From: Asterias amurensis
Lineage: Eukaryota > Echinodermata > Asteroidea > Forcipulatida > Asteriidae
Assembly (NCBI RefSeq): GCF_032118995.1
Contig: NC_092649.1
Location: 15,398,332-15,462,331 of the forward strand
DNA length: 64,000 nucleotides
Reading direction: 5' to 3'
Position numbers and translations under genes: made by a program. Position 1 is the first letter of the stretch. Each line of letters begins with the position of its first letter. Positions 1-43,136 of the stretch are shown here, piece after piece. The notes beneath the pieces are model-generated. The model saw only the letters and a program-made list of their open reading frames with translations. It searched no databases and was not told the DNA's origin.

Positions 1-812
1 TCCGTTGCAAGAATTTGCTTTGCCGACGAAGCAGCTTGAGTTGGTACAGATGCAACCCAGACTTCCTTCCGAACCTTAGAAGTACTTGGTTTTGATCCAT
101 CGTCGATAGAGCTGGACTCCGGAACTACAACAGTAGAAGGGCAAATTGTCGAACAGTCGTTGCGACGGGTTCTCAACGAACTGGCCCCAACTTTCACATG
201 TTGCCTGATTGCTTTGTAAACTAAGCTGTAGAACACGGCGACCATCACGAGCGTAGTTACACAGATTATAGCATGACATGCCAATATCAGTATGGGCAAT
301 ATAGGAATGGATGAGAATACTCCAACATACTCTGGAATATTTATTAGAACTGAGAACAAGGTCGATGCCCAGGCAGCTATCTTACCCCGTCTGTGCGTGA
401 AGAACCGCCGATGTGGACGGCAGACGCAGTCGTAGCGATCTACTGCTATCAATGCCGTTATCATAATGGAGGTACCAATGGCCGTCGTATTAAATGCCAA
501 CAAAAGCCGTATAACTACGGGTATTTCGTGTCCCATCATGATTAAAACTCGCCATGCAATGTTTGCTACTTTGATAAGGCAGACAGCAAGATCAGCCCAG
601 GCCAATGTCATGATGAAAACGTGGGTGCTTGTCTTCAGAGTCTTGGTCCAGTACACGCGAAGGATTAGAGAGTTACCAGGAACACCAAGTAATAGAACAA
701 GTGTAAAGCAACATATCCGAAATAGATTTACGCCAAGCTGAACGAAGGCAGGTTCAAGCGTTGTGTCGTTGAAAAGTTCTGTTGAATTGAATGCTGATGA
801 CATGTCTTCCAT
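1..812 (-). CDS. GPCR-1, class A receptor, cut by window edge
   Basis: N-terminal 270 codons of an intronless rhodopsin-like GPCR; the 3' part lies before base 1. It is aligned without gaps to GPCR-2 at an offset of 3706 bases and reads open to the edge. The start is the MEDM methionine, the one ATG kept by every complete copy. It shows TM1 with GNS, TM2 with LAWAD, TM3 ending in DRY, and a long ICL3 running off the edge. Position 3.32 is Asn. It differs from GPCR-2 at a few residues (for example Ala-Trp-Arg for Ala-Tyr-Arg after TM2, Ile for Thr in TM3), so it is a separate paralogue or allele and not an exact copy. An assembly duplication cannot be excluded. Likely a plasma-membrane receptor; the ligand is unknown. 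Confidence 0.85.
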   Translation of the reverse strand, partial: MEDMSSAFNSTELFNDTTLEPAFVQLGVNLFRICCFTLVLLLGVPGNSLILRVYWTKTLKTSTHVFIMTLAWADLAVCLIKVANIAWRVLIMMGHEIPVVIRLLLAFNTTAIGTSIMITALIAVDRYDCVCRPHRRFFTHRRGKIAAWASTLFSVLINIPEYVGVFSSIPILPILILACHAIICVTTLVMVAVFYSLVYKAIRQHVKVGASSLRTRRNDCSTICPSTVVVPESSSIDDGSKPSTSKVRKEVWVASVPTQAASSAKQILAT

Positions 813-1257
813 GTTGTTACGGCTGACGCTTTAAACTGACATGAAAATCACCATTTTCGTATGAAGCAACAATGTAATGTACAACTGTAGCTAACACAAG
901 ACACGTTGATGTCTTTCTAAAGTATCTCAACCTGCTTTTTCACTAGCAAATCACTTGATCGTTAATGACATACTTCATTAGTTCAGACGGATCGTGTGTG
1001 TTTTTCTTCAGGAGTTGACGGGAGTCCCACACACTGCATTTCTCGGTACGTATAAAGGATTGGGATGAATTTAATCTGGCGTGTATTGCGTGCTCACAGG
1101 AGTAAATGCATCTTGACTTTCCCTAGCCCGGCGGCATAGTCAGAAATCATGGCATTGTTAAAGCCAACCAATCACAAGGCAACATTGAATTATTCAGTGA
1201 TCGAAAGTTAGCCTTGGCCCAAGAGCTAAAGCTCCTCGCGACAGCGCATCACGATAA
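813..1257 (-). promoter_or_regulatory. 5' flank of GPCR-1
   Basis: This flank is conserved with those of GPCR-2, -3 and -5: a leader block reading TGATTTTCATGTCAG on the minus strand near 836-851, a GTGTCTTGTGTT block near 890-905, and a block around 980-1040 with GTGTGGGACTCCCGTC. Where GPCR-5 has CATATAAAAAGGG, this copy reads CATACGAAAATGG, so the TATA box is lost. Blocks seen directly; promoter role inferred. Confidence 0.55.
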
Positions 1258-1685
1258 TAGACTGTGCAAGTCTCGCGCGGATTTGAACTTCCGGGACCAT
1301 TGTGGTCCCAACCTTATGGAGTTTTACGTTGGGGAGATTTTGTTTCGTCCATTACTTTAGTTTAATGTAGTTTATGACCATAAAAATGACAAATGTTATT
1401 AAAAATGTAATACTAATTAACATCATATACCAAAGTAAAAATAAAGTCAACATAGTAACGAAGAAAAACCGATATTTAAACTTGACCTTAGAATTTGTGC
1501 CCATCTCCGATCACGAAACTAACGCAGACGCTTATTTTGGTCGCACGGGGTGAAAAGCCCATTCATTTGTCGTTTAGGCGTCGGCTTCCTCTTGAAACTG
1601 CGTCATGCATTTATCTAACGCCCTTGCGACCATCGTGCGTCCGCATATAAACCAGCTTTGAGTAGTTTCACATTCGGGCGTAGAT

Positions 1686-2276
1686 CATAGAGTTATATAT
1701 AAGAACTAGAGGGCGCACGAGTGATGCTTCGTGCACAAACGCCACGGGACCGCAAGATGACAAGCGCGTCATTATGTGACGCGCGTTGAATATGAAATAC
1801 ACGTTTGAGGGTTTTTTTATTGAACGCTCACGCGATGCTGTTTGTTCAACTTGTAAAATGGCCGCACAAACACACGCTGTGAGATAGCTGTTTTGTCAAC
1901 TTAGAAAATGGCCGCCTGCTCGCATACCGGGGCGCGTATATAGACCTTTCTTTTGTTGATCAACAAACCGCCTTGGTTGGCATGGTCGGCCGAATGTTAG
2001 TAAAACACTAAATCGTAAAAACAAATGTTTAAACAATGTTCAACATTTTCTGCTAACTTTCAGTTAAATAAAATACCTCTCATAATTAGTTGTTTTGTTT
2101 TAAACAAAATCGACAAATTTGGTTACATTATCACACAAAATAGCAATCTTTTCTTGATTTGCACTTATGGCTTTCCATAGTTGTCCAATCTGGGTTGGCA
2201 AAAGCTCGGGCTGTGACGTTGCAAAAGAAAGGTCTATGGGCCAGCGCGCGCTCTAGTTCTTATATATAACTCTATG
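1686..2276. mobile_element. hAT-like MITE nested in TA-1
   Basis: Ends are CATAGAGTTATATATAAG and its reverse complement. They are flanked by the 8-bp direct repeat GCGTAGAT (1678-1685 and 2277-2284). The TA-1 copy at 31357-32065 has the uninterrupted site (GCGTACAT, read on the minus strand near 31618). An 8-bp duplication and a CA start fit the hAT superfamily. Non-autonomous, no ORF. Confidence 0.85.
1943..2234. mobile_element. Possible third-level MITE with GACCTTTC ends
   Basis: GACCTTTCTTTTG on the left is mirrored by CAAAAGAAAGGTC on the right, with TA outside both. It resembles the TA-3 family at 50785 and may be an insertion into the hAT-like MITE, or simply that element's subterminal repeats. 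No empty site is available. Confidence 0.45.
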
Positions 2277-2546
2277 GCGTAGATTTACAAAAGGGGTTTC
2301 AAAAAAATTTAAGATCAAACAAACATCCTTGTCCCAGAATTTTACCTTTGTCTATAAATAGACTTTAACCGATAATTGTGTATTTGTTCAAAAAGCTAAA
2401 ACTAATTTAAACAAGCTCTATAGGGTATTTTTGTTGTTCAGATTCGGCATTAAGAATAAATTAAAGCAAAGATTTGATTCATAAAAAATAAAGTTCTTCA
2501 GTTGTCGTGTTTCTCGCTCCGGTGCGCGCGAGACTTGCACAGTCTA

Positions 2547-3354
2547 TTCTTGTTTCTTTCGAATTAACAATCTTTACGCATTCTCTCACCAGTGGTCACA
2601 TCACATGTCTTTAAACAATGTTTGACAAGTGAAACCATACCACAAGCGTAGAAAAAGAGAAAATCGTTTTCACTTGTTATTTAAATTTAATGTCTTCCAC
2701 GACAATCTTTGCGATTTCGCTGACATGGCTGCATGATATGACGATGTATATATTAGTCTTGAATTTTTTTTTTTAAATTAAGCACAGAGTAAAATACTGA
2801 AATTCTGACAAAAAAAAACTCTGCCGATGTCGACTATTATGCAGTTTCACGTCTTTTTCCCCTAACTCACCTATAAGGACAAGCACCGCTTTCAAAATGA
2901 TTCGGTTTCTATTTAGTTGCAAATATTTGTGGTCAATTATCTACATTAGTTTATATCATGATATCCTGGAAAGGAAATTGTGTAAGTCGTTGAGGAAAAC
3001 ATTTGATTTCCATAAAGAGTGAAACGGAACATGATTTCCTCATGTCTCTGTGCACATAACTAGGCACATGTACACCTCAGCAGTGGCGCGCGGCAGTGCT
3101 CAACACTTGCGTGCCCGTTGCGCGCCTGGATTGGTCTATACAACAGTTGAGCTTAAAACTCGTTTTGATGTGTGTACTAAAAAAGCCGGACATGCTCTTT
3201 TTGTGGTAAAATGTTGCACTTCATTGGGTAAACTGCTCCTCGTGGAAACCAATTTACCCATAATGCAAAGTGCACATTACACACACACTATGAAACAGCT
3301 AATTCTATTTTCTCAAATTCCAGATAAAATTTAAGTGTTGGAGGAATTCAAATG
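2547..3354. other. Spacer downstream of GPCR-2, no gene seen
   Basis: Unique to the 3.7-kb unit and repeated at 6253-7062. It holds AT-rich sequence with homopolymer runs. A 94-codon frame at 3050-3334 is present in both unit copies only because the DNA was duplicated. No RNA gene recognised. Confidence 0.6.
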
Positions 3355-4518
3355 TTAGCAGAGCTTTAGTTTGCGAATCACTTCTCTGCAGTCTTTCCTG
3401 AACCGTCTGTTTGCAACTCCATATATGAATGGGTTCATGACGTGGTTAATGTATAAAATGAGATACATTTCATTCAGTACTTGCAAGAGTATAGGATCGA
3501 TGTTCAGGCCACCCTGTACGGCAAAACTTACAATGATAAAGATCCAATATGGCAGCCATGTCATGAGGAAAAACACACTTGTCACAAAGAGCATCTTCGT
3601 TGTCTTACGCTGAAGTTGACTTATTGGCTGTTCGCGATCGGGGCGTGTTCTTTGACGGTTTGCCTCAAACCCCGACTCGGTATCCAGTGAAGATCGTGTC
3701 TGTAGATCCGTTGCAAGAGTTTGCTTTGCCGACGAAGCAGCTTGAGTTGGTACAGATGCAACCCAGACTTCCTTCCGAACCTTAGAAGTACTTGGTTTTG
3801 ATCCATCGTCGATAGAGCTGGACTCCGGAACTACAACAGTAGAAGGGCAAATTGTCGAACAGTCGTTGCGACGGGTTCTCAACGAACTGGCCCCAACTTT
3901 CACATGTTGCCTGATTGCTTTGTAAACTAAGCTGTAGAACACGGCGACCATCACGAGCGTAGTTACACAGATTATAGCATGACATGCCAATCTCAGTATG
4001 GGCAATATAGGAATGGATGAGAATACTCCAACATACTCTGGAATATTTATTAGAACTGAGAACAAGGTCGATGCCCAGGCAGCTATCTTACCCCGTCTGT
4101 GAGTGAAGAACCGCCGATGTGGACGGCAGACGCAGTCGTAGCGATCTACTGCTATCAATGCCGTTATCATAATGGAGGTACCAGTGGCCGTCGTATTAAA
4201 TGCCAACAAAAGCCGTATAACTACGGGTATTTCGTGTCCCATCATGAGTAAAACTCGGTATGCAATGTTTGCTACTTTGATAAGGCAGACAGCAAGATCA
4301 GCCCAGGCCAATGTCATGATGAAAACGTGGGTGCTTGTCTTCAGAGTCTTGGTCCAGTACACGCGAAGGATTAGAGAGTTACCAGGAACACCAAGTAATA
4401 GAACAAGTGTAAAGCAACATATCCGAAATAGATTTACGCCAAGCTGAACGAAGGCAGGTTCAAGCGTTGTGTCGTTGAAAAGTTCTGTTGAATTGAATGC
4501 TGATGACATGTCTTCCAT
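3355..4518 (-). CDS. GPCR-2, intact class A receptor, 387 aa, Asn3.32
   Basis: Complete intronless rhodopsin-type GPCR. The N-terminus has two N-glycosylation sequons (NST at 9, NDT at 16). Key residues: Asn47 (1.50), Asp74 (2.50), Ser at 3.39, DRY at 125-127, Trp148 (4.50), Tyr199 (5.58), an ICL3 of about 100 residues (203-305), Trp321-Leu-Pro323 in TM6 and NPFIY at 362-366, then helix 8 and a C-terminal KLC. Unusual: residue 101 (3.25) is Ile, so the canonical TM3-ECL2 disulphide cannot form. Position 5.50 is Val, and residue 108 (3.32) is Asn. Tyr356 fills 7.43, so it is not an opsin. Expected at the plasma membrane, coupling to a G protein; ligand unknown. Start chosen at MEDM. The 3' half is identical to that of GPCR-3. 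Confidence 0.92.
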   Translation of the reverse strand: MEDMSSAFNSTELFNDTTLEPAFVQLGVNLFRICCFTLVLLLGVPGNSLILRVYWTKTLKTSTHVFIMTLAWADLAVCLIKVANIAYRVLLMMGHEIPVVIRLLLAFNTTATGTSIMITALIAVDRYDCVCRPHRRFFTHRRGKIAAWASTLFSVLINIPEYVGVFSSIPILPILRLACHAIICVTTLVMVAVFYSLVYKAIRQHVKVGASSLRTRRNDCSTICPSTVVVPESSSIDDGSKPSTSKVRKEVWVASVPTQAASSAKQTLATDLQTRSSLDTESGFEANRQRTRPDREQPISQLQRKTTKMLFVTSVFFLMTWLPYWIFIIVSFAVQGGLNIDPILLQVLNEMYLILYINHVMNPFIYGVANRRFRKDCREVIRKLKLC

Positions 4519-4963
4519 GTTGTTACGGCTGACGCTTTAAACTGACATGAAAATCACCATTTTCGTATGAAGCAACAATGTAATGTACAACTGTAGCTAA
4601 CACAAGACACGTTGATGTCTTTCTAAAGTATCTCAACCTGCTTTTTCACTAGCAAATCACTTGATCGTTAATGACATACTTCATTAGTTCAGACGGATCG
4701 TGTGTGTTTTTCTTCGGGAGTTGACGGGAGTCCCACACACTGCATTTCTCGGTACGTATAAAGGATTGGGATGAATTTAATCTGGCGTGTATTGCGTGCT
4801 CACAGGAGTAAATGCATCTTGACTTTCCCTAGCCCGGCGGCATAGTCAGAAATCATGGCATTGTTAAAGCCAACCAATCACAAGGCAACATTGAATTATT
4901 CAGTGATCGAAAGTTAGCCTTGGCCCAAGAGCTAAAGCTCCTCGCGACAGCGCATCACGATAA
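4519..4963 (-). promoter_or_regulatory. 5' flank of GPCR-2, TATA lost
   Basis: Nearly identical to the GPCR-1 flank, with the same decayed TATA position and the same TGATTTTCATGTCAG leader block. One visible difference is GGGAGTTGACGG for AGGAGTTGACGG near 4715. Promoter role inferred. Confidence 0.5.
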
Positions 4964-4965
4964 TA

Positions 4966-6250
4966 GACTGTGCAAGTCTCGCGCGGATTTGAACTTCCGG
5001 GACCATTGTGGTCCCAACCTTATGGAGTTTTACGTTGGGGAGATTTTGTTTCGTCCATTACTTTAGTTTAATGTAGTTTATGACCATAAAAATGACAAAT
5101 GTTGTTAAAAATGTAATACTAATTAACATCATATACCAAAGTAAAAATAAAGTCAACATAATAACGAAGAAAAACCGATATTTAAACTTGACCTTAGAAT
5201 TTGTGCCCATCTCCGATCACGAAACTAACGCAGACGCTTATTTTGGTCGCACGGGGTGAAAAGCCCATTCATTTGTCGTTTAGGCGTCGGCTTCCTCTTG
5301 AAACTGCGTCATGCATTTATCTAACGCCCTTGCGACCATCGTGCGTCCGCATATAAACCAGCTTTGAGTAGTTTCACATTCGGGCGTAGATCATAGAGTT
5401 ATATATAAGAACTAGAGGGCGCACGAGTGATGCTTCGTGCACAAACGCCACGGGACCGCAAGATGACAAGCGCGTCATTATGCGACGCGCGTTGAATATG
5501 AAATACACGTTTGAGGGTTTTTTTATTGAACGCTCACGCGATGCTGTTTGTTCAACTTGTAAAATGGCCGCACAAACACACGCTGTGAGATAGCTGTTTT
5601 GTCAACTTAGAAAATGGCCGCCTGCTCGCATACCGGGGCGCGTATATAGACCTTTCTTTTGTTGATCAACAAACCGCCTTGGTTGGCATGGTCGGCCGAA
5701 TGTTAGTAAAACACTAAATCGTAAAAACAAATGTTTAAACAATATTCAACATTTTCTGCTAACTTTCAGTTAAATAAAATACCTCTCATAATTAGTTGTT
5801 TTGTTTTAAACAAAATCGACAAATTTGGTTACATTATCACACAAAATAGCAATCTTTTCTTGATTTGCACTTATGGCTTTCCATAGTTGTCCAATCTGGG
5901 TTGGCAAAAGCTCGGGCTGTGACGTTGCAAAAGAAAGGTCTATGGGCCAGTGCGCGCTCTAGTTCTTATATATAACTCTATGGCGTAGATTTACAAAAGG
6001 GGTTTCAAAAAAATTTAAGATCAAACAAACATCCTTGTCCCAGAATTTTACCTTTGTCTATAAATAGACTTTAACCGATAATTGTGTATTTGTTCAAAAA
6101 GCTAAAACTAATTTAAACAAGCTCTATAGGGTATTTTTGTTGTTCAGATTCGGCATTAAGAATAAATTAAAGCAAAGATTTGATTCATAAAAAATAAAGT
6201 TCTTCAGTTGTCGTGTTTCTCGCTCCGGTGCGCGCGAGACTTGCACAGTC
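4966..6250. mobile_element. TA-1 MITE, duplicate of the copy at 1260
   Basis: Same insertion as 1260-2544, copied with the 3.7-kb unit; same GACTGTGCAAG ends and flanking TA. Confidence 0.85.
5392..5982. mobile_element. hAT-like MITE nested in TA-1, second unit
   Basis: Duplicate of the element at 1686-2276, again between two GCGTAGAT repeats. A handful of point differences from the first copy help date the unit duplication. Confidence 0.85.
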
Positions 6251-6252
6251 TA

Positions 6253-7062: not shown

Positions 7063-8226
7063 TTAGCAGAGCTTTAGTTTGCGAATCACTTCTCTGCAGT
7101 CTTTCCTGAACCGTCTGTTTGCAACTCCATATATGAATGGGTTCATGACGTGGTTAATGTATAAAATGAGATACATTTCATTCAGTACTTGCAAGAGTAT
7201 AGGATCGATGTTCAGGCCACCCTGTACGGCAAAACTTACAATGATAAAGATCCAATATGGCAGCCATGTCATGAGGAAAAACACACTTGTCACAAAGAGC
7301 ATCTTCGTTGTCTTACGCTGAAGTTGACTTATTGGCTGTTCGCGATCGGGGCGTGTTCTTTGACGGTTTGCCTCAAACCCCGACTCGGTATCCAGTGAAG
7401 ATCGTGTCTGTAGATCCGTTGCAAGAGTTTGCTTTGCCGACGAAGCAGCTTGAGTTGGTACAGATGCAACCCAGACTTCCTTCCGAACCTTAGAAGTACT
7501 TGGTTTTGATCCATCGTCGATAGAGCTGGACTCCGGAACTACAACAGTAGAAGGGCAAATTGTCGAACAGTCGTTGCGACGGGTTCTCAACGAACTGGCC
7601 CCAACTTTCACATGTTGCCTGATTGCTTTGTAAACTAAGCTGTAGAACACGGCGACCATCACGAGCGTAGTTACACAGATTATAGCATGACATGCCAATC
7701 TCAGTATGGGCAATATAGGAATGGATGAGAATACTCCAACATACTCTGGAATATTAATCAAAACTGAGAACAAGAACGATGCCCAGGCCGCTATCTTACC
7801 CCGTCTGTGAGTGAAGAACCGCCGATGTGGACGGCAGACGCAGTCGTAGCGATCTACTGCTATCAATGCCGTTATCATAATGGAGGTACCAATGGCCGTC
7901 GTTTCTAACGCCAACAAAAGCCGTATAACAGCGGATATTTCGTGTCTCATCATGAGTAAAACTCGGTATGGAATGTTGGCTACTTTGATGAGGCAGACGG
8001 CAAGATCAGCCCAGGCCAATGTCATGATGAAAACGTGGGTGCTTGTCTTCAGAGTCTTGGTCCAGTACACGCGGAGGATGAGAGAGTTTCCAGGAACACC
8101 AAGTAATAGAATAAGTGCGAAGAAAATTATCCGGAATATATTTACGCCAAGCTGAACGAAGGCAGGTTCAAGCTTTGTGTCGTTGAAAAGTTGGGTTGAA
8201 TTGAATGCTGGTGACATGTCTTCCAT
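7063..8226 (-). CDS. GPCR-3, intact class A receptor, 387 aa, mosaic, Glu3.32
   Basis: Full-length intronless GPCR with the same landmarks as GPCR-2 (GNS, LAWAD, DRY, WLP, NPFIY; no Cys3.25). The part from TM4 to the stop (7063-7755) matches GPCR-2 base for base as far as I could compare, while the N-terminal half (7756-8226) differs: SPAFNS for SSAFNS, TLEP replaced by KLEP, ALETT for AFNTT. Residue 108 (3.32) is therefore Glu, not Asn. This is a hybrid produced by unequal crossover or gene conversion at the TM4/ECL2 junction. The MYNSSNI stretch upstream of MEDM opens on GTG, so MEDM is taken as the start. Confidence 0.92.
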   Translation of the reverse strand: MEDMSPAFNSTQLFNDTKLEPAFVQLGVNIFRIIFFALILLLGVPGNSLILRVYWTKTLKTSTHVFIMTLAWADLAVCLIKVANIPYRVLLMMRHEISAVIRLLLALETTAIGTSIMITALIAVDRYDCVCRPHRRFFTHRRGKIAAWASFLFSVLINIPEYVGVFSSIPILPILRLACHAIICVTTLVMVAVFYSLVYKAIRQHVKVGASSLRTRRNDCSTICPSTVVVPESSSIDDGSKPSTSKVRKEVWVASVPTQAASSAKQTLATDLQTRSSLDTESGFEANRQRTRPDREQPISQLQRKTTKMLFVTSVFFLMTWLPYWIFIIVSFAVQGGLNIDPILLQVLNEMYLILYINHVMNPFIYGVANRRFRKDCREVIRKLKLC

Positions 8227-9409: not shown

Positions 9410-9516
9410 AATGTCTTTTTTTTCTTAAGGATCGAATTAAAGTCAATAATGTTTTGACCCATTAAATATATCCTACACATGTTGAAGATAGACCAGGCCA
9501 AGGACACAATAAGGAA

Positions 9517-9915: not shown

Positions 9916-10102
9916 GAACCGTGTAAGTGCATCCCAAACGCACCACCTAGCGTTCGCTGTGGCAAGCAATATGTTTTCTAATGAGCCCCGTTTTTACGAG
10001 GTATCTGTGGAGCAGATATTTATTACGTAAGGCGTACAATAGTTTATATATTCGCTTCAAGATTCTGTCATATATTTGCCATCCCATTGTCTGCATAATA
10101 AA

Positions 10103-13168: not shown

Positions 13169-13702
13169 ATGATCATTATTATTAAGAATATTATACTGTA
13201 CATGAATTATAGTTCCCTTGACCATGGAGGTAGAATGCCTTGACTCAGCATGGTTTGTTGTCACCAATAGGCATAATTTTTGCCTATCGAATATAACGAG
13301 ATGAATGGTTAAATTGTGCAATCATTTATAGCCCCAAAGTTTTTACAAAATTGTTCCCAGCAACACAGATTAATTTGGATCCTCAGTAAAGAAGGATAAA
13401 GTTTTTTTCATGATTTTCTTTTTGAAGATACGAGCGGTTGAACCGAATAACGAATTGCACAATGCCGTGGCCGTGCGTTAAAGGCCCGAGCCTCCGGCCG
13501 GTTTTAAACGGCAGTTTAAGAACTCGTCGCTACCCTTATATTCCCTTAATAGCACAATTCTTCGGAGGTTGATTGTACGAGATCAACAAAGTGGTTTCAG
13601 TGACTCTATAATGGTTGTGTCTAAGATCTAAAAGCCGGTTACAATGTAAGCTTTATAGACAACTTTGGTGTTCTAGTGGCGACAACCAGGTGGAGAGAAA
13701 TA
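13169..13702. other. Intergenic; part resembles the 3' flank of GPCR-8
   Basis: The stretch 13575-13700 (TGGTTTCAGTGACT...) resembles 43222-43310, the plus-strand 3' flank of GPCR-8, although no plus-strand receptor precedes it. Confidence 0.5.
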
Positions 13703-14147
13703 CTTCCATGTGAAAGAGAAACACCACTACCGTGAAAGAGAAACACCACCACTGTGAAAGAGACACACCACCACTGTGAAAGAGAAACACTACCACCGTG
13801 AAAGAGAAACACCACCACTGTGAAAGAGAAACACTACCACCGTGAAAGAGAAACACTATCTCGTAAAAGAGAGACAATAGCCGTGAAAGAGAAACACTAC
13901 CACTGTGAAAGAGAAACACTATCTCGTGAAAGAGAAACACTACCACCGTGAAAGAGAAACACTACCACCGTGAAAGAGAAACACCACCACTGTGAAAGAG
14001 AAACACTACGTCTGTGAAAGAGAAACACCACCACTGTGAATGAGAAACACCACCACCGCGAAAGAGAAACACTACCATGTGAAAGAGAAACACTACCACT
14101 GTGAAAGAGAAACACCACCTCTGAGAAAGAGAAACACCACCACTGTG
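13703..14147. repeat. 22-bp minisatellite S1 (GTGAAAGAGAAACAC unit)
   Basis: About twenty units of GTGAAAGAGAAACACYACCA. Units contain GAAAGAGAAAC, matching the interferon-regulatory-factor consensus GAAANNGAAAC. It abuts pseudogene GPCR-4 directly and reads antisense to it, unlike the arrays after GPCR-5 to -8. The frames through it are translation artefacts. Confidence 0.9.
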
Positions 14148-14657
14148 AGGGATTACTCAGGAATACTCCTCAACTGTGGGCTAGTTATGAGAACTGAGAA
14201 CAAGAACGATGCCCAGGCTGCTATCTTACCCCGTCTGTGCGTGAAGAACCGCCGATGTGGACGGCAGACGCAGTCGTAGCGATCTACTGCAATCATGGCC
14301 GTTATCAAATGGAGGTACCAACGGCCGTCGTTTCTAACGCCAACAAAAGCCGTATAACAGCGGGTGTTTCGTGCCTCATCATGAGTAAAACTCGGTATGG
14401 AATGTTAACTACTTTGATGAGGCAGACGGCAAGATCAGCCCAGGCCAATGTCATGATGAAAACGTGGGTGCTTGTCTTCAGAGTCTTGGTCCAGTACACG
14501 CGGAGGATGAGAGAGTTACCAGGAACACCAAGTAATAGAACAAGTGTAAAGCAACATATCCGAAATAGATTTACGCCAAACTGAACAAAGGCAGTTTCAA
14601 GCTTTGTGTCGTTGAAAAGTTAGGTTGAATTGAATGCTGATGACATGTCTTCCATGA
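14148..14657 (-). pseudogene. GPCR-4 pseudogene, N-terminus to ECL2 only
   Basis: Fragment covering the N-terminus, TM1-TM4 and the first part of ECL2, then cut by the minisatellite. The MEDM start is present. A CAA-to-TAA change creates a stop 12 codons in, and a one-base deletion near 14308 shifts the frame after TM3. Position 3.32 is Glu. The ECL2 remnant matches GPCR-6 best. The promoter side is intact, with a TATA box and an E-box, so it could still be transcribed. Confidence 0.9.
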
Positions 14658-17328: not shown

Positions 17329-18540
17329 ATGGAAGACATGTCATCAGCATTCAATTCAACCCAACTTTTGAACGACACCAAGCTTGAACCAGCCTTCGTT
17401 CAGCTTGGCGCAAATATATTCCGGATAAGTTGCTATACACTTATTCTATTACTTGGTGTTCCTGGTAACTCTCTCATCCTCCGCGTGTACTGGACCAAGA
17501 CTCTGAAGACAAGCACCCACGTTTTCATCATGACATTGGCCTGGGCTGATCTTGCCGTCTGCCTCATCAAAGTAGCAAACATTGCATGGCGAGTTTTACT
17601 CATGATGGGACACGAAATACCCGTTGTTATACGGCTTTTTGGAGCATTTGATGCGACGGCCATTGGTACCTCCATTATGATAACGGCAGTGATTGCAGTA
17701 GATCGCTACGACTGCGTCTGCCGTCCACATCGGCGGTTCTTCACTCACAGACGGGGTAAGATAGTAGCCTGGGCATCGTTCTTGTTCTCGGTTCTTATAA
17801 ATAGTCCAGAGTATGTTGAATTGTTCTCGAATAGTCCCATCTTGCCTATAATAAGAACGGCATGTCATGCTATTATCTGTGTAACTACGCTCGTGATGGT
17901 CGCCGTGTTCTACAGCTTAGTTTACAAATCAATCAGGCAACATGTGAAAGTTGGGGCCAGTTCGTTGAGAACCCGTCGCAATGACTGTTCGACAATCTTC
18001 CCTGCTAATGTTGTAGTTCAGGGATCTAGCTCAATCAAAGATGGATCACAACCAAGCACTTCTAAAGTTCGGAAGGAAGCTTTGGTTGCATCTGTACCAA
18101 CTCAAGCTGCTAGACTCTATGGAAAAACAGTTCAAGATCAAAACTTCTGCAAAAATTCAACATCGGCAAAGCAAGCTTTTGCAACGGATCTACATACACC
18201 AACTTCACTGGACACCGGGTCAGGGTTGGAAGCAAACGGTCAAAGAACACGCCCCGAACAGCCTTCCAACGTTAGTCAACTTCAGCGTAAGACAACGAAG
18301 ATGCTCTTTTTGGCAAGTGTGATCTTCTCCATGACATGGCTGCCATATTGGATCTTTATCATTGTAAGTTTTGCCGTACAGGCTGGCCTGAACATCGATC
18401 CTATACTCTTGCAAGTAGTGAATGAAACATTTCTCACGTTGTACATTAACCACGTCGTCAACCCATTCATCTATGGAGTTGCAAACTCACGGTTCAGGAA
18501 AGACTGCAGAGAAGTGATTCGAAAATTCAAACTCTGTTAA
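17329..18540 (+). CDS. GPCR-5, intact class A receptor, 403 aa, Asp3.32
   Basis: Intronless GPCR with all family landmarks. Its ICL3 is about 16 residues longer than in GPCR-2 because it keeps a segment containing RLYGKTVQDQ. In TM3 it reads LFGAFDATA, giving Asp at 3.32. With Tyr at 7.43 this is the ion-pair geometry of aminergic receptors, so an amine ligand is possible; however Cys3.25 and Trp7.40 are missing and no specific family can be named. ECL2 also differs (SNSPILPIIRT). The start is MEDM: the upstream MYNSS stretch begins with GTG here and is preceded in frame by TAA, and the TATA spacing allows only a short leader. The 3' minisatellite starts about 135 bases after the stop. Confidence 0.93.
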   Translation: MEDMSSAFNSTQLLNDTKLEPAFVQLGANIFRISCYTLILLLGVPGNSLILRVYWTKTLKTSTHVFIMTLAWADLAVCLIKVANIAWRVLLMMGHEIPVVIRLFGAFDATAIGTSIMITAVIAVDRYDCVCRPHRRFFTHRRGKIVAWASFLFSVLINSPEYVELFSNSPILPIIRTACHAIICVTTLVMVAVFYSLVYKSIRQHVKVGASSLRTRRNDCSTIFPANVVVQGSSSIKDGSQPSTSKVRKEALVASVPTQAARLYGKTVQDQNFCKNSTSAKQAFATDLHTPTSLDTGSGLEANGQRTRPEQPSNVSQLQRKTTKMLFLASVIFSMTWLPYWIFIIVSFAVQAGLNIDPILLQVVNETFLTLYINHVVNPFIYGVANSRFRKDCREVIRKFKLC

Positions 18541-18675: not shown

Positions 18676-19105
18676 CCACTGCCACTGAAAGAGAAACACT
18701 ACCAAGAGAAAGAGAAACACTACCACGTGAAAGAGAAACACTACCAAGAGCAAGAGAAACACTACCACGTGAAGAGAAATACGTCTACGTGAAACAGAAC
18801 CACACCAACGTGAAACAGAACCACACCAACGTGAAAGAGAAACACTACCAAGTGAAAGAAAAACACTACCAAGTGAAAGAGAAATACGTCCACTAGAAAC
18901 AGAACCACACCTAAGTGAAAGAAAAACACTACCAAATGAAAGAGAAACACTGCCAAATGAAAGAGAAATACGTCCACGTGAAACAGAACCACACCCAAAT
19001 GAAAGAGAAACACTACCAAGTGAAAGAGAAACGCCACCAAATGAAAGAGAAACACGTCCATGTCCTCGAAAGAGAACCACTGCCACTGTGAAAGAGAAAG
19101 GCAAC
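18676..19105 (+). repeat. Minisatellite S2 after GPCR-5
   Basis: Units of AAAGAGAAACACTACCAAGTG, with interspersed variants TACGTCCACGTGAAACAGAA that bear CACGTG. Same purine strand as the gene. Confidence 0.88.
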
Positions 19106-22149: not shown

Positions 22150-23462
22150 TAGCCTTGATCAAGGCTGTGTAGACAATTACTCTAGCTAAAAACCATAGAG
22201 CAAGGATAAACCTAAGCCGTCCGAATGAGGATGCGATACCCCCGACTGCTGGGGGTCCGCCCGATAGTCCGAAGGTCCGTTAGTCCGAAGGTGCAATAGT
22301 CCGAAGGTTCGATAGTCCGAACGCGCAAATTTTCCATAAGAGGGGGTTCATTAGTCCGAAAATGTAATAGGGTTCGTTAATCCGAACATATGATGCGATA
22401 GTCCGAAGGTTCATTAGTCCGAAGGTTCATCGATCCGAAGGTTTACTGGTCCGAAGGTTCGGTAGTCCGAATTTAAAAAAGGTTAGTTGGTCCGAAGGTT
22501 CGATAGTCCGAAACAAAAACGAGGTTCAACAGTCCGAAGGTTCATTATTCCGAATCGACGATAAGGTTCGATAGTCCGAATCGACGACAAGGTTCGATAG
22601 TCCAAATTGACAATAAGGTTCGATAGTCCGAATCGACAATAAGGTTCGATAGTCCGAACTGACAATAAGGTTCGATAGTCCGAACTGACAATAAGGTTCG
22701 ACAAAACAAAACGAACTTCTTATTTAAATTTCCCTACGGTGTGCGTCTTTCGAACCTTAATCGAACCTTATTATCGATTCGGACTATCGAACCTTATTGT
22801 CAGTTCGGACTATCGAACCTTATTGTAAATTCGGACTATCGAACCTTATTGTCAATTCGGACTATCGAACCTTATCGTCGATTCGGACTACCGAACCTTA
22901 TCGTCGATTCGGACTATCGAACCTTATCGTCGATTCGGAATAATGAACCTTCGGACTGTTGAACCTCGTTTTTGTTTCGGACTATCGAACCTTCGGACCA
23001 ACTAACCTTTTTTAAATTCGGACTACCGAACCTTCGGACCAGTAAACCTTCGGATCGATGAACCTTCGGACTAATAAACCTTCGGACTATCGCATCATAT
23101 GTTCGGATTAACGAACCCTATTACATTTTCGGACTAATGAACCCCCTCTTATGGAAAATTTGCGCGTTCGGACTATCGAACCTTCGGACTATTGCACCTT
23201 CGGACTAACGGACCTTCGGACTATCGGGCGGACCCCCGGTAACCGACTGCTGTACATGTACGCATCCTCACACGCACACCGCTATTCCACACACCGCTAT
23301 CACTCACAATCCTAGCCCTTGAGTCGTCAGGCTCACAGCCTTGACGATCTTGTAAACCGAGTGTCTCATGTGTTTCATTGTTTTTCTTCGCAAATCCGTG
23401 GAAAATGGGGGGGGGGGGGAGGATGTGAGTGGATATGCAAAGATCAGCCTTGATCAAGGCTA
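22150..23462. mobile_element. Large TAG-foldback element, 1.3 kb, 9-bp target duplication
   Basis: Perfect 18-base terminal repeats TAGCCTTGATCAAGGCTG, each itself a small palindrome. Direct repeats CTGCCTCTG at 22141-22149 and 23463-23471 interrupt a TTAA-1 MITE, so the boundaries are certain. The interior is dominated by two arms of about 450-480 bases made of GGTTCGATAGTCCGAA-type subrepeats. Architecture resembles the foldback (TU) elements known from sea urchins. No ORF with transposase features. Confidence 0.9.
22251..23237. repeat. Giant palindrome of GGTTCGATAGTCCGAA subrepeats
   Basis: The left arm (about 22251-22705) is the reverse complement of the right arm (about 22760-23237), including the irregular interruptions (CGCGCAAATTTTCC, AACATATGATGCGA), so the arms arose by one inversion or copying event. 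Each subrepeat itself begins TTCG and ends CGAA and can fold. Confidence 0.92.
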
Positions 23463-32065: not shown

Positions 32066-32131
32066 TATTGACCCCTTGCACGCGTATCTTACGCGGCGAC
32101 CAATGCCACGCTCACCCATAGATATAGAATA

Positions 32132-35548: not shown

Positions 35549-36737
35549 ATGAAATGTCCGTTCCAAAAAGACAAGTCCTTTGTTCAGCTTGGTGTAAATA
35601 TATTCCGGATAAGTTGCTTTACACTTATTCTATTACTTGGTGTTCCTGGTAACTCTCTAATCCTCCGCGTGTACTGGACCAAGACTCTGAAGACAAGCAC
35701 CCACGTTTTCATCATGACATTGGCCTGGGCTGATCTTGCTGTCTGCCTCATCAAAATAGTCAACATTCCATGCCGAGTTTTACTCATGATGGGACACGAA
35801 ATACCCGCTGTTATACGGCTTTTGTTAGCATTTGAAACGACTGCCATTGGTACCTCCATTATGATAACGGCAGTGATTGCAGTAGATCGCTACGACTGCG
35901 TCTGCCGTCCACATCGGCGGTTCTTCACGCACAGACGGGGTAAGATAGCAGCCTGGGCATCGTTCTTGTTCTCAGTTCTCATCACTAGCCCACAGTATAT
36001 AGGAGTATTCCTAAATAATCCCGTTCATGGTTCGTCCAAAATAGTATTGGCATGTCATGCTATAATCTGTGTAACTACACTCGTGATGGTCGCCGTGTTC
36101 TACAGCTTAGTTTACAAAGCAATCAGGCAACATGTGAAAGTTGGGACCAGTTCGTTCCGAACCCGTCGCAATGACTGTTCTACAATCTTCCCTGCTAATG
36201 TTGTAGTTCAGGCATCTAACTCAATCAACGATGGATCAAAACCAAGCACTTCTAAGGTTCAACGGAAGGACGTCTGGGTTGCATCTGTATCAACTCAAGC
36301 TGCTAGACTCCATGGAAAAACCTTTCAAGATCAACGCTTCAGCAAATATTCCACACCGGCAAAGCAAGCTTTTGCAACGGATCTACAGACACGAACTTCT
36401 TTGGACACCGAGTCAGGGTTGGAGGCAAACCGTAAGAGAATACGCCTTGAACACCCATCCAACTTTAATCGACTTCTTCAGCGTAAGACAACGAAGATGC
36501 TCTTTTTGGCAAGTCTGGTCTTCTCCATGACATGGATGCCATATTGGATCTTCATCTTTGTAAGTTTGGCCGTACAGAGCGGCCTGAACTTTCAATCCAA
36601 TATTCCTTCAAGTAGTGAATGAAATGTTTCTCATTTTGTACATTAACCACGTCGTCAATCCATTCATCTATGGAGTTGCAAACAGACGGTTCAGGAAAGA
36701 CGGCAGAGAAGTGATTCGAAAATTCAAGCTCTGTTAA
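35549..36737 (+). pseudogene. GPCR-6, receptor pseudogene with replaced 5' end
   Basis: Open from 35549 to 36622. Homology begins only at FVQLGVNIF before TM1; the usual MEDM N-terminus, both glycosylation sites and the promoter are replaced by a foreign 10-codon start (MKCPFQKDKS). TM1-TM6 are intact with Glu3.32, DRY and WMPYW; ECL2 is its own type (LNNPVHGSSKIV). An extra T near 36591 shifts the frame, so TM7, NPFIY and helix 8 are lost, although their sequence persists to the family stop at 36735-36737. A sequencing error could account for the shift but not for the lost 5' end. Confidence 0.88.
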
Positions 36738-36857
36738 CAACTGAATTCCTTATGAACTGTACACAGTACACAGAAATAACATATTTCTTCGGAAGTTGTT
36801 TGTACGACTCAATTTCGATATTAAAATGGTGGTTTACGTCAACTTCTGAGGGAACCA

Positions 36858-37275
36858 TGCTGCCACTGTGAAAGAGAAACACTACCAAGTGAAAGAAAAA
36901 CACTGCCAATGTTAAAGGGAACCACACTACCAAGTGAAGGAGAAACACCACCACTGTGAAAGAGAAACACTACCACGTGAAAGAGAAACATTTCTACTCG
37001 AAAGAGAAACACCACCACTGTGAAAAAGAAATACTACCACTGTGAAATATAAATATTTCCACGGCAAAGAGAAACACCTCTAAGTGAAAGATAAACACGT
37101 CCACGTGAAAAAGAGCCACTACAACTGTGGGAGAGAAACACTACCACCTGAAAGAGAAACACTACCACTGTGGCACTGTGGAAGATAAATATTTCCACCT
37201 GAAAGAGAAACACTACCACTTGAAAGAGAAACATTTCACTCGAAAGAGAACAACTGCCATTGTGAAAGAGAAACG
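36858..37275 (+). repeat. Minisatellite S3 after GPCR-6
   Basis: GTGAAAGAGAAACACTACCA units with variants, about 120 bases after the family stop, same strand as the gene. Confidence 0.88.
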
Positions 37276-38160: not shown

Positions 38161-38640
38161 CAGATTTTACCTCATAATAATATTATGAATGATAAAAGAG
38201 TATTTATATAGCGCCTTATATGTCAGGCCTCGACACACTAAAACTATATTAGTCAAAACAACGCTAATTAGTCGTAAGAGACATGATTTTGACTAACTTA
38301 CATCAAAATCATGTCTCGTACGACTAATTAGCGTTGATTTGACACATACATTTTATTTATTTTTTACATTGAAAGCGCTTTCCACTAAAATACAATTATT
38401 TTAAAAACAACACTAAGTATAGAAAAGGCAGTCTAAAAACCTAAAAAAGTGTATACTGGGGTATACAAAAAAAGGTATAAAACTTATACTGATGTTGTGT
38501 GACACTGGAATCGTGTACGTATCAAGTTTTGGGTACATAACCCCCCCCCCCCCACCCCCCACAACCCCCGGAAGGATGACAATTAGGTTTCTACTTTGTT
38601 ACGGGCGGCAAGGTCGGCAATGACGACTACTTCACTCGAA
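38161..38640. other. Repeat-derived spacer with an 80-base hairpin
   Basis: AACGCTAATTAGTCG...GACATGATTTTGA at 38253-38288 faces its mirror at 38300-38334. The flanks TTTATATAGCGCCTTA and AAAGCGCTTTCC suggest a host repeat into which the hairpin inserted. Ends in a C run near 38541. Confidence 0.5.
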
Positions 38641-39022
38641 GTTACCGTCAGCCTTTTCTTTTGTTACACTTTCTACTATTTTCTCTTTGACAGAAGTAAA
38701 TTAGTTTTGCGACGTCCCGTAAAACATTAATTACCATACATAAAAAATTTAAGCCATTCAGTTATTAACCAGATATTGGACGGCGAAAGCCTAATGTGTT
38801 ACTTTCGCTCTTTCACGTCTTGATTCACCTGAACCAATAACAAAATTATCACAGACATTACACTAACCCTCTATTATGTGACCACGTGATTTGCTAATGG
38901 ACGAGCCGAGCGATATAAAAAGGCACAAGCGTGTTTCCTGTTATCTTTTGATGGACATCTTCAAACGAAAGTTACCATTTTCATGTCAGTCTGGAGTGTT
39001 CATGTACAACAGCAGTAACATC
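38641..39022 (+). promoter_or_regulatory. Promoter and 5'UTR of GPCR-7
   Basis: E-box CACGTG at 38883-38888 and TATA box TATAAAA at 38914-38920, giving a start site near 38945. Leader with TTTTCATGTCAG at 38978-38989. The same array precedes pseudogene GPCR-4 in reverse, and in damaged form GPCR-8. Confidence 0.7.
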
Positions 39023-40240
39023 ATGGAAGACATGTCATCAGCATTCAATTCAACTCAACTTTTCAACGACACCAAGCTTGAACCTGCCTTCGTTCAGCTT
39101 GGTGTAAATATATTCCGGATAAGTTGCTTTACACTTACTCTATTACTTGGTGTTCCTGGTAACTCTCTAATCCTCCGCGTGTACTGGACCAAGACTCTGA
39201 AGACAAGCACCCACGTTTTCATCATGACATTGGCCTGGGCTGATCTTGCTGTCTGCCTTATCAAAGTAGTTAACATTCCATACCGAGTTTTACTATTGAT
39301 TGGGCACGAAATACCCGCCGTTATACGGCTTATGTTGGCATTTGAAACGACGGCCATTGGTACCTCCATTATGATAACGGCAGTGATTGCAGTAGATCGC
39401 TACGACTGCGTCTGCCGTCCACATCGGCGGTTCTTCACTCACAGACGGGGTAAGATAGCGGCCTGGGCATCGTTCTTGTTCTCAGTTCTGATAAATATTC
39501 CTGAGTATGTTGGAGTATTCTCATCCATTCCTATATTGCCCATACTGAGATTGGCATGTCATGCTATAATCTGTGTAACTACACTCGTGATGGTCGCCGT
39601 GTTCTACAGCTTAGTTTACAAAGCAATTAGGCAACATGTGAAAGTTGGGGCCAGTTCGTTGAGAACCCGTCACAATGACTGTTCGACAATCTGCCATGCT
39701 AATGTTGTAGCTCCGGAACCTAACTTATTTAACGATGGATCAAAACCAAACACTTCTAAGGTTCGGAAGGAAGTCTGGGTTGCATCTGTACCAACTGAAG
39801 CTGCTAGACTTCATGGAAAAACCGTTCAAGATCAAAGCTTCAGCAAATATTCCACATCGACAGCGCAAGCTCTTGCAACGGCGGATCTACAGACACGAAC
39901 TTCTTTGGACACCGAGTCAGGTTCGGAGGCAAACCGTAAGAGAATACGCCCCGAACATCCATCCCATTTCAATAAACTTCTTCAGCGTAAGACAACGAAG
40001 ATGCTCTTTTTGGCAAGTCTGGTCTTCTCCATGACATGGATGCCATATTGGATCTTCATCTTTGTAAGTTTGGCCGTACAGAGCGGCTTGAACTTCAATC
40101 CAATATTCCTTCAAGTAGTGAATGAAATGTTTCTCATTTTGTACATTAACCACGTCGTCAACCCATTCATCTATGGGGCTGCAAACAGAAGGTTCAGGAA
40201 AGACAGCAGAGAAGTGATTCGCACATTCAAGCTTTGCTAA
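39023..40240 (+). CDS. GPCR-7, intact class A receptor, 405 aa, Glu3.32
   Basis: Complete intronless receptor: two N-terminal sequons, GNS in TM1, LAWAD in TM2, MLAFETT giving Glu at 3.32, DRY, RPHRRFF in ICL2, long ICL3 with the LHGKTVQDQ segment, WMPYW in TM6, NPFIY in TM7. Differences: GAAN after NPFIY where relatives have GVAN, and DSREV for DCREV in helix 8, which removes a possible palmitoylation cysteine. In-frame ATGs at 38951 and 39002 would extend the N-terminus by 24 or 7 residues; MEDM is chosen because it alone is conserved across copies. TM6 and the C-terminal half are closest to GPCR-6. Confidence 0.93.
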   Translation: MEDMSSAFNSTQLFNDTKLEPAFVQLGVNIFRISCFTLTLLLGVPGNSLILRVYWTKTLKTSTHVFIMTLAWADLAVCLIKVVNIPYRVLLLIGHEIPAVIRLMLAFETTAIGTSIMITAVIAVDRYDCVCRPHRRFFTHRRGKIAAWASFLFSVLINIPEYVGVFSSIPILPILRLACHAIICVTTLVMVAVFYSLVYKAIRQHVKVGASSLRTRHNDCSTICHANVVAPEPNLFNDGSKPNTSKVRKEVWVASVPTEAARLHGKTVQDQSFSKYSTSTAQALATADLQTRTSLDTESGSEANRKRIRPEHPSHFNKLLQRKTTKMLFLASLVFSMTWMPYWIFIFVSLAVQSGLNFNPIFLQVVNEMFLILYINHVVNPFIYGAANRRFRKDSREVIRTFKLC

Positions 40241-40394
40241 CAACCTCTGAACTCCTTATGAACTGTAATTTCATCGAATCAATGTATGTAAACACAAAAT
40301 GACGTTTAGACATTACACACAAATAACATATTTCTTCGGAAGTTGTTTGTACGACTCAATTGTGATATCAAAATGGTGGTTTTACGTCAACTTC

Positions 40395-40690
40395 AAAGGG
40401 AACCACTGCCACTGAAAGAGAAACACTACCAAGAGAAAGAGAAACACTACCACGTGAAAGAGAAACACTGTCACGTGAAAGAGAAACACTGCCAATGTGA
40501 AAGAGAAATACAACCACATTAAAGAGAAAAACTACCACGTGAAAGAGAAACACCTGTAAGTGACTAGATAAGCACGTCCACGTGAATAAACAGCCTCTGC
40601 CACTGTGAAAAAGAAATACTATCTCTGTGAAAGAGAAACATTTCCACTCGAAAGAGAACCACTGCCACTGTGAAAGAGAAACGCAACACG
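40395..40690 (+). repeat. Minisatellite S4 after GPCR-7
   Basis: About a dozen GTGAAAGAGAAACAC units beginning some 160 bases after the stop; same strand as the gene. Confidence 0.87.
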
Positions 40691-41480
40691 GCGGCATAAT
40701 GGTTCCCATACAAACAGAGGCGTGTGCTTAAATTATTTGTCTCAAACTTCCAACTACAAGTATGACCGTGTCCTGACTCTTGTGCTTGATCACTATGCAC
40801 CGTTTTAAATGTGGCCAAGCACCAAACACCGCAGCCAACTTTTTCAAGATTCTTGGCTTAGGCTCCGTCTCTGGCTACGAGCTACGTTAGCTGTTGTAAA
40901 CACCGTACCAAATGTGCACTGCTCTACAAATTGATGACTGAACCCAAACCGAAAGAGAAACTCGTGGCCGTGGTTTGGATAGGGCATGCAGCCAATATCA
41001 TATCTTTCAAACCTTGCTTATTAGAAAACCCTACAACAATCCCCGCCGTCCTCATGCACCTTTCACCTACATTCATTTTTCAAAGAGATACGACGTCAAA
41101 TTATGCACCAAATGCAAGTACATGTACGTGTACTGACCATAATACACATGAAACTGCATGCATGCAGACGCAGAAAGTAAGCTTTTCATATCTGTGTTTT
41201 GATTGGTCCGAGGTGACGTTTTTCAGCTGCATGGACCATTCAAGTCACAGCTATGTAAAGATTTTGTCACTGCACGTAACTTTATCCAATGAAATCACAA
41301 CATGTATGTATAGTCAAAGAAATCACTGGTTCTCATAACCAATTCCCTGTCTTTACTTTTGCGGATAAAGCAAGAATTCGAGTGAAATGTAACAGATAGG
41401 CTAGTCCAGATTTTACCTCATGTTGATGTACCGCGACACTGGACTCGTACACACCCAATTATTTGTACGTTATGCCCCCG
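40691..41480. other. 3' spacer of GPCR-7 unit
   Basis: Third copy of the conserved spacer. The CCAAT hairpin at 41198-41255 has its loop and part of one arm deleted. No gene. Confidence 0.6.
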
Positions 41481-41921
41481 AGTGCTGACAATAATTAGGT
41501 TTCTACTTTGTTATAGGCGTCAAGGTCGGCAATAGCGACTACTTTGCGTCACTCGAAGTCACCGTCAGTCTTGTTAAAAACTTTCTACTATTTTCTCCTT
41601 GACAGAAGTAATTATTAGTTTTGCGATGTCCAATAAATTATTAAATACCCACATAACGAATTTAAGCCATACAGTAATTACCCAGATATTGGGTGGCAAA
41701 AGCCTTAGTGTCACCTTCGCTCTTTTACGTCTTGATTCACCTGAACCAATAACAAAATGATTACGCTGACATTACACCAACACTCAGTTATGTGACTACG
41801 TAATTTGCTAATAGACGAGCCGAGAAAGCGTGTTTCCTGTTATCTTTTGATGCACATCTTCAAACGAAAGTTACCATTTTCATGTCAGTCTGGAGTGTTC
41901 ATGTACAACAGCAGTAACATC
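41481..41921 (+). promoter_or_regulatory. Damaged promoter of GPCR-8
   Basis: Aligned to the GPCR-7 promoter. The E-box reads TACGTA instead of CACGTG (41798-41803), and a net 15-base deletion after GACGAGCCGAG removes the whole TATA box. The TTTTCATGTCAG leader remains at 41877-41888. Confidence 0.65.
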
Positions 41922-43136
41922 ATGGAAGACATGTCATCAGCATTCAATTCAACCCAATTTTTGAACGACACCAAGCTTGAACCTGCCTTCGTTCAGCTTG
42001 GTGTAAATATATTTCGGATAATTTTCTTCGCACTTATTCTATTACTTGGTGTTCCCGGTAACTCTCTAATCCTTCGCGTGTACTGGACCAAGACTCTGAA
42101 GACAAGCACTCACGTTTTCATCATGACATTGGCCTTGGCTGATCTTGCCGTCTGCCTTATCAAAGTAGCAAACATTGCATACCGAGTTTTACTCATGATG
42201 GGACACGAAATACCCGCTGTTCTACGGCTTTTGTTGGCATTTGAAACGACGGCCATTGGTACCTCCATTATGATAACGGCAGTGATTGCAGTAGATCGCT
42301 ACGACTGCGTCTGCCGTCCACATCGGCGGTTCTTCACTCACAGACGGGGTAAGATAGCTGCCTGGGCATCGACCTTGTTCTCAGTTCTGATAAATATTCC
42401 TGAGTATGTTGGAGTATTCTCATCCATTCCTATATTGCCCATACTGAGATTGGCATGTCATGCTATAATCTGTGTAACTGCGCTCGTGATGGTCGCTGTG
42501 TTCTACAGCTTAGTTTACAAAGCAATCAGGCAACATGTGAAAGTTGGGGCCAGTTCGTTGAAAACCCGTCGCAATGACTGTTCGACAATTTGCCCTGCTA
42601 ATGTTGTAGCCCCGGAACCTAGCTCAATCAATGATGGATCAAAACCAAACACTTCTAAGGTTCGGAAGGAAGTCTGGGTTGCATCTGTTCCAACTCAAGC
42701 TGCTAGTCTTCAGGAAAAAACCGTTAAAGATCAAAGCTTCAGCAAATGTTCCACATCATCAGCAAAGCAAGCTCTTGCAACGGATCTACATAAACCAACT
42801 TCTTTGGACACCGAGCCAGGGTTGGAGGCAAACCATAAAAGAATACGCCCCGAACACCCATCCCACTTTAGCCAACTTCAGCGTAAGACAACGAAGATGC
42901 TCTTTGTGGCTAGCGTTGTCTTCTTCGTCACATGGATGCCATATTGGACCTCCATCTTTTTAGGTCTCTCAGTACAGAGTGGCTTGAACATTGGGCCCTT
43001 AGTCCTTCAAGTATTATCTGAAATACATCTCAGTTTATACATTAACCACGTCGTGAACCCATTCATCTATGGAGTTGCAAACAGACGGTTCAGGAAAGAC
43101 TGCAGAGAAGTGATTCGCAAATTCAAACTCTGTTAA
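41922..43136 (+). CDS. GPCR-8, intact class A receptor, 404 aa, diverged TM6-TM7
   Basis: Open, full-length receptor with family landmarks and Glu3.32. TM2 reads LALAD where relatives have LAWAD. The outer half of TM6, ECL3 and the start of TM7 differ strongly from all other copies (TSIFLGLSVQ, LNIGPLVLQVLSEIHLSL), while the flanking VTWMPYW and YINHVVNPFIYG are conserved. That region lines the ligand entrance in class A receptors, so altered specificity is plausible. The promoter lacks TATA and E-box, so expression may be altered. MEDM start chosen; an in-frame ATG lies 7 codons upstream at 41901. Confidence 0.92.
   Translation: MEDMSSAFNSTQFLNDTKLEPAFVQLGVNIFRIIFFALILLLGVPGNSLILRVYWTKTLKTSTHVFIMTLALADLAVCLIKVANIAYRVLLMMGHEIPAVLRLLLAFETTAIGTSIMITAVIAVDRYDCVCRPHRRFFTHRRGKIAAWASTLFSVLINIPEYVGVFSSIPILPILRLACHAIICVTALVMVAVFYSLVYKAIRQHVKVGASSLKTRRNDCSTICPANVVAPEPSSINDGSKPNTSKVRKEVWVASVPTQAASLQEKTVKDQSFSKCSTSSAKQALATDLHKPTSLDTEPGLEANHKRIRPEHPSHFSQLQRKTTKMLFVASVVFFVTWMPYWTSIFLGLSVQSGLNIGPLVLQVLSEIHLSLYINHVVNPFIYGVANRRFRKDCREVIRKFKLC

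Follow-up and report, generated by a model that had tools for sequence, protein, structure and literature searches.

The stretch of DNA analysed here, called the window below, covers 64,000 nucleotides of the genome of the starfish Asterias amurensis. It spans positions 15398332-15462331 of contig NC_092649.1 (C2 below), in a genome of 491,506,623 bases on 23 contigs. Its first part (window 1-43136) carries one class A G protein-coupled receptor (GPCR) gene in eight copies, GPCR-1 to GPCR-8. Six of the eight, namely, GPCR-1, -2, -3, -5, -7, and -8, are intact, with an open frame of 387-405 residues across all seven transmembrane (TM) helices, and the other two, GPCR-4 and GPCR-6, are broken. 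On the minus strand, GPCR-1 (1-812) is cut by the window start and is complete in the genome as locus L014 (C2:15397983-15399143, 387 amino acids), while GPCR-2 (3355-4518) and the mosaic GPCR-3 (7063-8226) are intact with 387 amino acids each. GPCR-4 (14159-14655), on the same strand, is a pseudogene: codon 12 is a stop, the frame is shifted in TM3, and the sequence breaks off around residue 170, where a minisatellite adjoins it. On the plus strand, GPCR-5 (17329-18540, 403 amino acids), GPCR-7 (39023-40240, 405 amino acids), and GPCR-8 (41922-43136, 404 amino acids) are intact. GPCR-6 (35570-36734) is likely a pseudogene, as its first 19 residues are missing and its frame shifts at about residue 358, immediately before TM7. 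Outside the window, an intact copy on contig C10 (the C10 copy) is 78% identical to GPCR-8. A copy split by a frameshift (L061, C2:15148561-15149768; the split copy) lies about 250 kb away and is closest to GPCR-5, with DNA identities of 95.8% and 98.3% across its two parts.

The proteins belong to class A by a 7tm_1 match (E 6.6e-26) and by N1.50, D2.50, DRY, W6.48-x-P6.50, and NPxxY. GPCR-2 also reaches the cut-off of the Srw chemoreceptor model (22.2 bits), and a search of NCBIfam gave no match. Among solved structures, the best 60 of 642 matches of GPCR-8 as a single sequence are led by peptide receptors (CCK, NPY2, TRH, and SST2), and the best 60 of 763 matches of the family profile have D2, NPFF2, CCK-A, and 5-HT2C first; these searches point to no clear affiliation to one known receptor group. 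Structure prediction for the five complete proteins of the window gave a mean predicted local distance difference test score (pLDDT) of 37 and a predicted template modelling score (pTM) of 0.20. In the whole genome the family gave at least 110 match rows, several genes being in two pieces. Fifty proteins were aligned, each the longest open frame of its locus, with GPCR-8 taken from its start codon; the halves of the split copy (L017 and L019), GPCR-4 (L037), a fragment of 134 amino acids (L066), and weaker rows were left out. Motif and score then served to remove ten distant rows (L052-L058 and L062-L064). The remaining 40, a lower bound for the family, comprise the C10 copy, seven genes of the array with GPCR-6 among them, and 32 others on several contigs, several of them clustered; the truncated rows L016 (which is GPCR-6), L039, L046, L048, and L051 were kept. 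None of these 40 rows has Cys3.25, L047 having a cysteine at 3.27, and when the ten distant rows are included it is found in 5 of 50, all five within those ten. A TM3 that lacks this cysteine is unusual for a class A receptor. Of the 40 rows, 3 have Pro5.50 and 35 share the motif DRYDC(V/I)C. Within the array, position 2.57 is always Lys and position 5.42 is Cys. All six intact genes, and the C10 copy as well, have Tyr/Trp at 6.51/6.52, where aminergic receptors typically carry the aromatic pair Phe6.51/Phe6.52 and where CWLPFF or a similar motif stands in the genome's best 7tm_1 matches.

A preliminary description of this DNA had drawn attention to position 3.32 in TM3, and its assignment of residues to GPCR-1 to -8 is borne out by the codons, when 3.32 is located by counting 18 residues back from Arg3.50. 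The residue is Asn (AAT) in GPCR-1 and -2, Asp (GAT) in GPCR-5 and the split copy, and Glu in the others, encoded by GAA in GPCR-3, -4, -6, -7, and -8, the C10 copy, and a relative on C22, and by GAG in a relative at C2:2.60 Mb. The register also holds. TM3 is without indels within the array, and a family profile of 19 sequences pairs the Glu of the array with the TM3 Asp of the D2 dopamine receptor with TM3 free of gaps. As a control, the same count was applied to the genome's eight best 7tm_1 matches, identified by that match alone, and it led to Asp3.32 and Cys3.25 in seven; the eighth (L002) is a miss in which the script took a wrong ER motif. Thus, the varying residue is really at 3.32, a position that probably lines the ligand pocket. 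Three or more residues occur among the six intact genes at 10 of 214 TM positions and at 7 of 85 outer TM positions, 3.32 among them, and by entropy in the 40-row set 3.32 is 23rd of the 214 and 20th of the 85. It is therefore among the more variable positions but is not unique. A salt bridge between a basic residue (K/R) at 2.57 and an acidic 3.32 was also considered; across the 40 family rows, 13 of 18 with an acidic 3.32 have a basic 2.57 and so do 13 of the 22 others, which is no association, and such a bridge is therefore no more than a possibility.

How many substitutions the Asn, Glu, and Asp pattern needs can be read from the tree and the codons. A ten-copy tree unites the Asn copies with 98% support and joins the two Asp copies, GPCR-5 and the split copy, with 72%, while Glu3.32 is common to array copies and the closest outgroups. 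Since GPCR-1 and GPCR-2 are 98.4% identical in protein, their Asn3.32 counts as a single event. The step from GAA to GAT takes one nucleotide and that from GAT to AAT one more, and the third-position T is common to GPCR-1, -2, and -5. Two changes, one to Asp in the GPCR-5 lineage and one to Asn in the GPCR-1/2 lineage, would be enough to give the whole pattern.

The copies have also exchanged sequence. GPCR-2 and GPCR-3 differ at 34 nucleotides, all at or before nucleotide 471 (codon 157, at the end of TM4), and beyond codon 157 there are zero differences over 690 compared nucleotides. Six differences lie within codons 146-157, and the junction was placed after codon 157; the 5' part has a difference-free stretch of its own of 102 nucleotides (336-437). 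The difference at 3.32 between these two genes falls in the unexchanged 5' part. Informative sites are in conflict among the array copies, and they include the two-nucleotide codon 87, where both nucleotides that make Trp are common to GPCR-1 and GPCR-5 and GPCR-2 has Tyr. Such exchange could be due to gene conversion or to unequal crossing-over within the gene. The units of GPCR-1 and GPCR-2 are 99.4% alike along 3.7 kb. Because of the exchange and of these near-identical units, the sameness of the signalling half of GPCR-1 to -3 would stem partly from recent common origin.

Variability was counted over the six intact genes and the C10 copy, with pocket positions as generally assigned in class A receptors. 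The outer halves of the TM helices vary at 42 of 85 positions and the inner halves at 16 of 92, so that the part of the preliminary description that placed variation on the outer side is upheld. The same division is seen in nonsynonymous differences per nonsynonymous site (pN, 0.122 outer and 0.035 inner) and in the ratio of nonsynonymous to synonymous rates (dN/dS, 0.63 outer and 0.22 inner). An excess of change at pocket positions, on which the idea of diversifying ligand choice depends, was not found: in the outer halves 16 of 33 pocket positions vary against 26 of 52 non-pocket positions, with dN/dS of 0.54 and 0.68, respectively. Over all TM positions, outer and inner, the pocket does show a surplus (16 of 37 against 52 of 177 for the rest), but this arises because pocket positions sit mostly in the outer half. 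dN/dS is 0.46 overall and 0.68 in intracellular loop (ICL) 3, and no segment that allowed its computation reached 1. Since the outer pocket is no more variable than its surroundings and in view of these dN/dS values, the pattern is one of weaker constraint across the outer half and ICL3 with no excess targeted to the pocket. The intracellular face, which had been called constant, is so in part. Tyr7.43, DRY, and NPFIY do not change in the six intact genes, Tyr7.43 being kept as had been said, and TKTLKT of ICL1 and RPHR of ICL2 have no variable position, whereas in ICL3 60 of 115 positions vary, as do 5 of 19 in helix 8 with the C-terminus. Likewise, the claim that extracellular loop 2 varies applies to GPCR-5, which deviates in the stretch EYVGVFSSIPI; this stretch is identical in the other five of the six intact genes.

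Codon-based site tests were the check proposed for selection on ligand choice at 3.32, and in all site-class fits the relative branch lengths of M0 were retained. In the 5' half, M8 was favored over M8a with 2 delta lnL (twice the difference in log-likelihood) of 4.7, or 5.0 with a rewritten script, and omega of about 2.1. The posterior at 3.32 was 0.97 or 0.99 in the two script versions, and the top sites include 2.63, 3.29, 1.38, 3.32, and 1.40. The 3' half gave no signal of M8 over M8a, and over the whole gene 2 delta lnL was 3.4. Data were also simulated without positive selection. Null runs with exchange, built on four block-specific trees, reached the observed 5.0 in 7 of 79 cases, and null runs with one tree did so in 3 of 78; these are the completed simulations out of 400 queued per kind, and FastTree was used to re-estimate their trees, the observed one having been built with IQ-TREE. 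At least one site rose above 0.95 in 49 of the 79 runs with exchange and in 32 of the 78 with a single tree. The 5'-half signal is therefore borderline and, once exchange is allowed, indistinguishable from the null at the 5% level. On these two null counts positive selection at 3.32 was not accepted, and with it the claim that selection at this residue diversifies ligand choice is not sustained.

Taken together, these results make it quite probable that the array represents a tandem cluster of open-frame rhodopsin-class receptor genes that is young and lineage-specific and has been shaped by duplication, exchange, and decay. It looks like a known kind of system, an ordinary young gene cluster; the lineage specificity of the expansion we infer from one echinoderm genome. 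Several points weigh against this conclusion. In the ten-copy tree, support at the deeper nodes is 19-49%, and more than two changes at 3.32 are possible. The outer TM halves do change faster than the inner ones. The 5'-half site tests rest on 200 codons of seven sequences and have low power, 3.32 ranks fourth of the 200 in the M8 fit with a posterior of 0.97, the single-tree null makes the statistic nominally significant, and weak positive selection at 3.32 is possible. Finally, the putative chemosensory role is one that we infer, and it is possible rather than established. What stands of the chemoreceptor family diversifying with conserved signalling that had been described is a tandem class A family with faster outer TM halves; the pocket excess, clear selection at 3.32, a constant ICL3, and the analogy to amine receptors are not supported.

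The adaptive alternative would have the outer end of TM1-TM3, centred on 3.32, under positive selection and the class of residue tuning the ligand. The M8 statistic of the 5' half with its five top sites, the faster outer halves, and the rarity of that statistic in the single-tree null speak for it. We nevertheless regard it as unlikely, given the absence of a pocket excess, the frequency with which the exchange null reaches the statistic, the lack of signal in the 3' half, the low value for the whole gene, and the two events at 3.32 that suffice. A second alternative is that the receptors sense amines or trace amines, with Glu, Asp, and Asn as variants of the counter-ion site, and it is very unlikely in our estimate. 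The array shares with aminergic receptors the class A signature, W6.48, Tyr7.43, DRY, and NPxxY, and the best solved match of the family profile is the D2 receptor, but the matches of the single sequence are headed by peptide receptors. Unlike aminergic receptors, the array has Asp3.32 in only one of its six intact genes, Cys3.25 is missing throughout the family set, and Tyr6.51/Trp6.52 replaces the usual pair, whereas seven of the genome's eight best 7tm_1 matches retain Asp3.32 together with Cys3.25. Neither is the trace amine-associated receptor (TAAR) feature of Asp3.32 and/or Asp5.42 present, as 5.42 is Cys and Asp3.32 is found in GPCR-5 only. Membership of the aminergic receptors or TAARs was thus rejected on Cys3.25, 5.42, and 6.51/6.52, and an amine ligand itself is possible. 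The same residues, with the rarity of Pro5.50 and the invariant Lys2.57, weigh against the reading of 3.32 as an amine counter-ion site that the preliminary description had offered by analogy. Glu or Asp at 3.32 may pair with Lys2.57 as readily as with the amine of a ligand, and so the residue at 3.32 alone does not tell the ligand.

The TAARs are a chemoreceptor family that, like the array, varies at 3.32, where they have Asp, Glu, or have lost the acid (PMC4695389, PMC8546428). Glu3.32 is known in them but rare, being found in a few rodent TAARs, and the effect of an Asp-to-Glu change varies (PMC4695389, PMC8546428): a lamprey TAAR so changed kept its polyamine activity at lower potency, which favors the amine alternative, and in mouse TAAR9 the change nearly abolished activity, which speaks against it (PMC8546428). 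Zebrafish TAARs that have lost Asp3.32 mostly have Asp5.42 (PMC4695389), in contrast to the array with its Cys5.42, its missing Cys3.25, and its Tyr6.51/Trp6.52. The array, with tandem copies whose open frames of 387-405 amino acids were read from genomic DNA alone in one echinoderm genome, would fit the published description of the echinoderm odorant receptor (OR)-like families. The sea urchin surreal-GPCRs and the Acanthaster ApORs resemble it in the tandem expansion of rhodopsin-class, open-frame genes, in overall purifying selection, and in a variable ICL3 (PMC5442662, PMC7042368). They are described as tandem and mostly single-exon, and M7 was preferred over M8 in four clades (PMC7042368). 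One difference is that in the ApOR alignment four cysteines are 80% conserved and one of them is in TM3 (PMC5442662), whereas all 40 rows of the starfish family set are without Cys3.25. This likeness bears on a third alternative, that the proteins are receptors for peptides or other endogenous ligands instead of environmental chemoreceptors, to which we give a real but minor chance. The long ICL3 and the peptide receptors closest to GPCR-8 among solved sequences are in its favor, but tandem, open-frame, fast-duplicating clusters with pseudogenes are typical of chemoreceptor families, and the tandem, mostly single-exon organization of the echinoderm OR-like genes points the same way. Chemical sensing is perhaps what the array receptors do, and we consider this a reasonable guess. 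Among the literature matches listed, no title concerns the array or the 3.32 pattern in asteroid receptors.

A minisatellite of 21-22 bp (TGAAAGAGAAACACTACCACCG), with the exact core AGAGAAACAC, lies near copies of the array. It is found on the plus, sense strand 3' of GPCR-5 (18686-19099), GPCR-6 (36863-37274), GPCR-7 (40395-40687), and GPCR-8 (43335-44366); outside the window it also occurs with the C10 copy (C10:7184055-7184920) and the split copy (C2:15147932-15148408). The exact core is first met 138-205 nucleotides past the last codon of GPCR-5 to -8, 175 nucleotides past that of the split copy, and 478 past that of the C10 copy. At the truncated 3' end of GPCR-4 (13694-14148, plus strand) it is opposite in sense to the gene, and this end of GPCR-4 against an opposite-oriented minisatellite (13694-14159) suggests an inversion or exchange junction. 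Neither the 1.5 kb flanking GPCR-1 to -3 on each side nor the roughly 1.5 kb downstream of the 12 more distant family members that were checked contain the exact core. Elsewhere in the genome further arrays of it lie on C7 (at least two) and C20 (at least one), with shorter matches on at least C1, C2, C5, C6, C10, C14, and C15; none of the four stretches examined (two on C7, one on C20, and one on C6) carries a receptor of the array's kind. Apart from the minisatellite, a palindrome at 22251-23237, with two 464-nucleotide arms that are 97% complementary, 59 nucleotides between them, and tandem repeats of 16 and 26 bp inside, looks like a foldback element. The window also has an open frame of 262 amino acids (59471-60259) without a match in Pfam or solved-structure searches; its end seems to resemble part of the pseudouridine synthase PUS7.

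If the array is a young cluster of this kind, its evolution would be driven by duplication, by exchange of sequence between copies, and by decay. Each protein would be a membrane receptor whose ligand would bind in the outer part of the helix bundle, and coupling to G protein would run through the conserved DRY, W6.48, and NPxxY machinery. It is conceivable, and we think very doubtful, that the cluster works as a module shuffler in which the junction near the end of TM4 joins differing TM1-TM4 halves to a shared half of TM5-TM7 and ICL3. The TM1-TM4 halves would then bring the variable 3.32 and the outer TM1-3 sites, the TM5-TM7 and ICL3 half would be the signalling half, and the gene-linked 3' minisatellite would perhaps help to keep the copies pairing. 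Should this be true, new pocket combinations would arise faster than by point mutation. Whatever the case, the young tandem cluster serves as a worked case in which a striking residue pattern can come from two substitutions together with sequence exchange, and in which exchange alone can mimic a signal of positive selection at a well-known point of ligand contact. The class A receptors that lack the TM3 cysteine, about 40 in number, would be a sensible set for de-orphaning in a starfish that is of concern both economically and ecologically.

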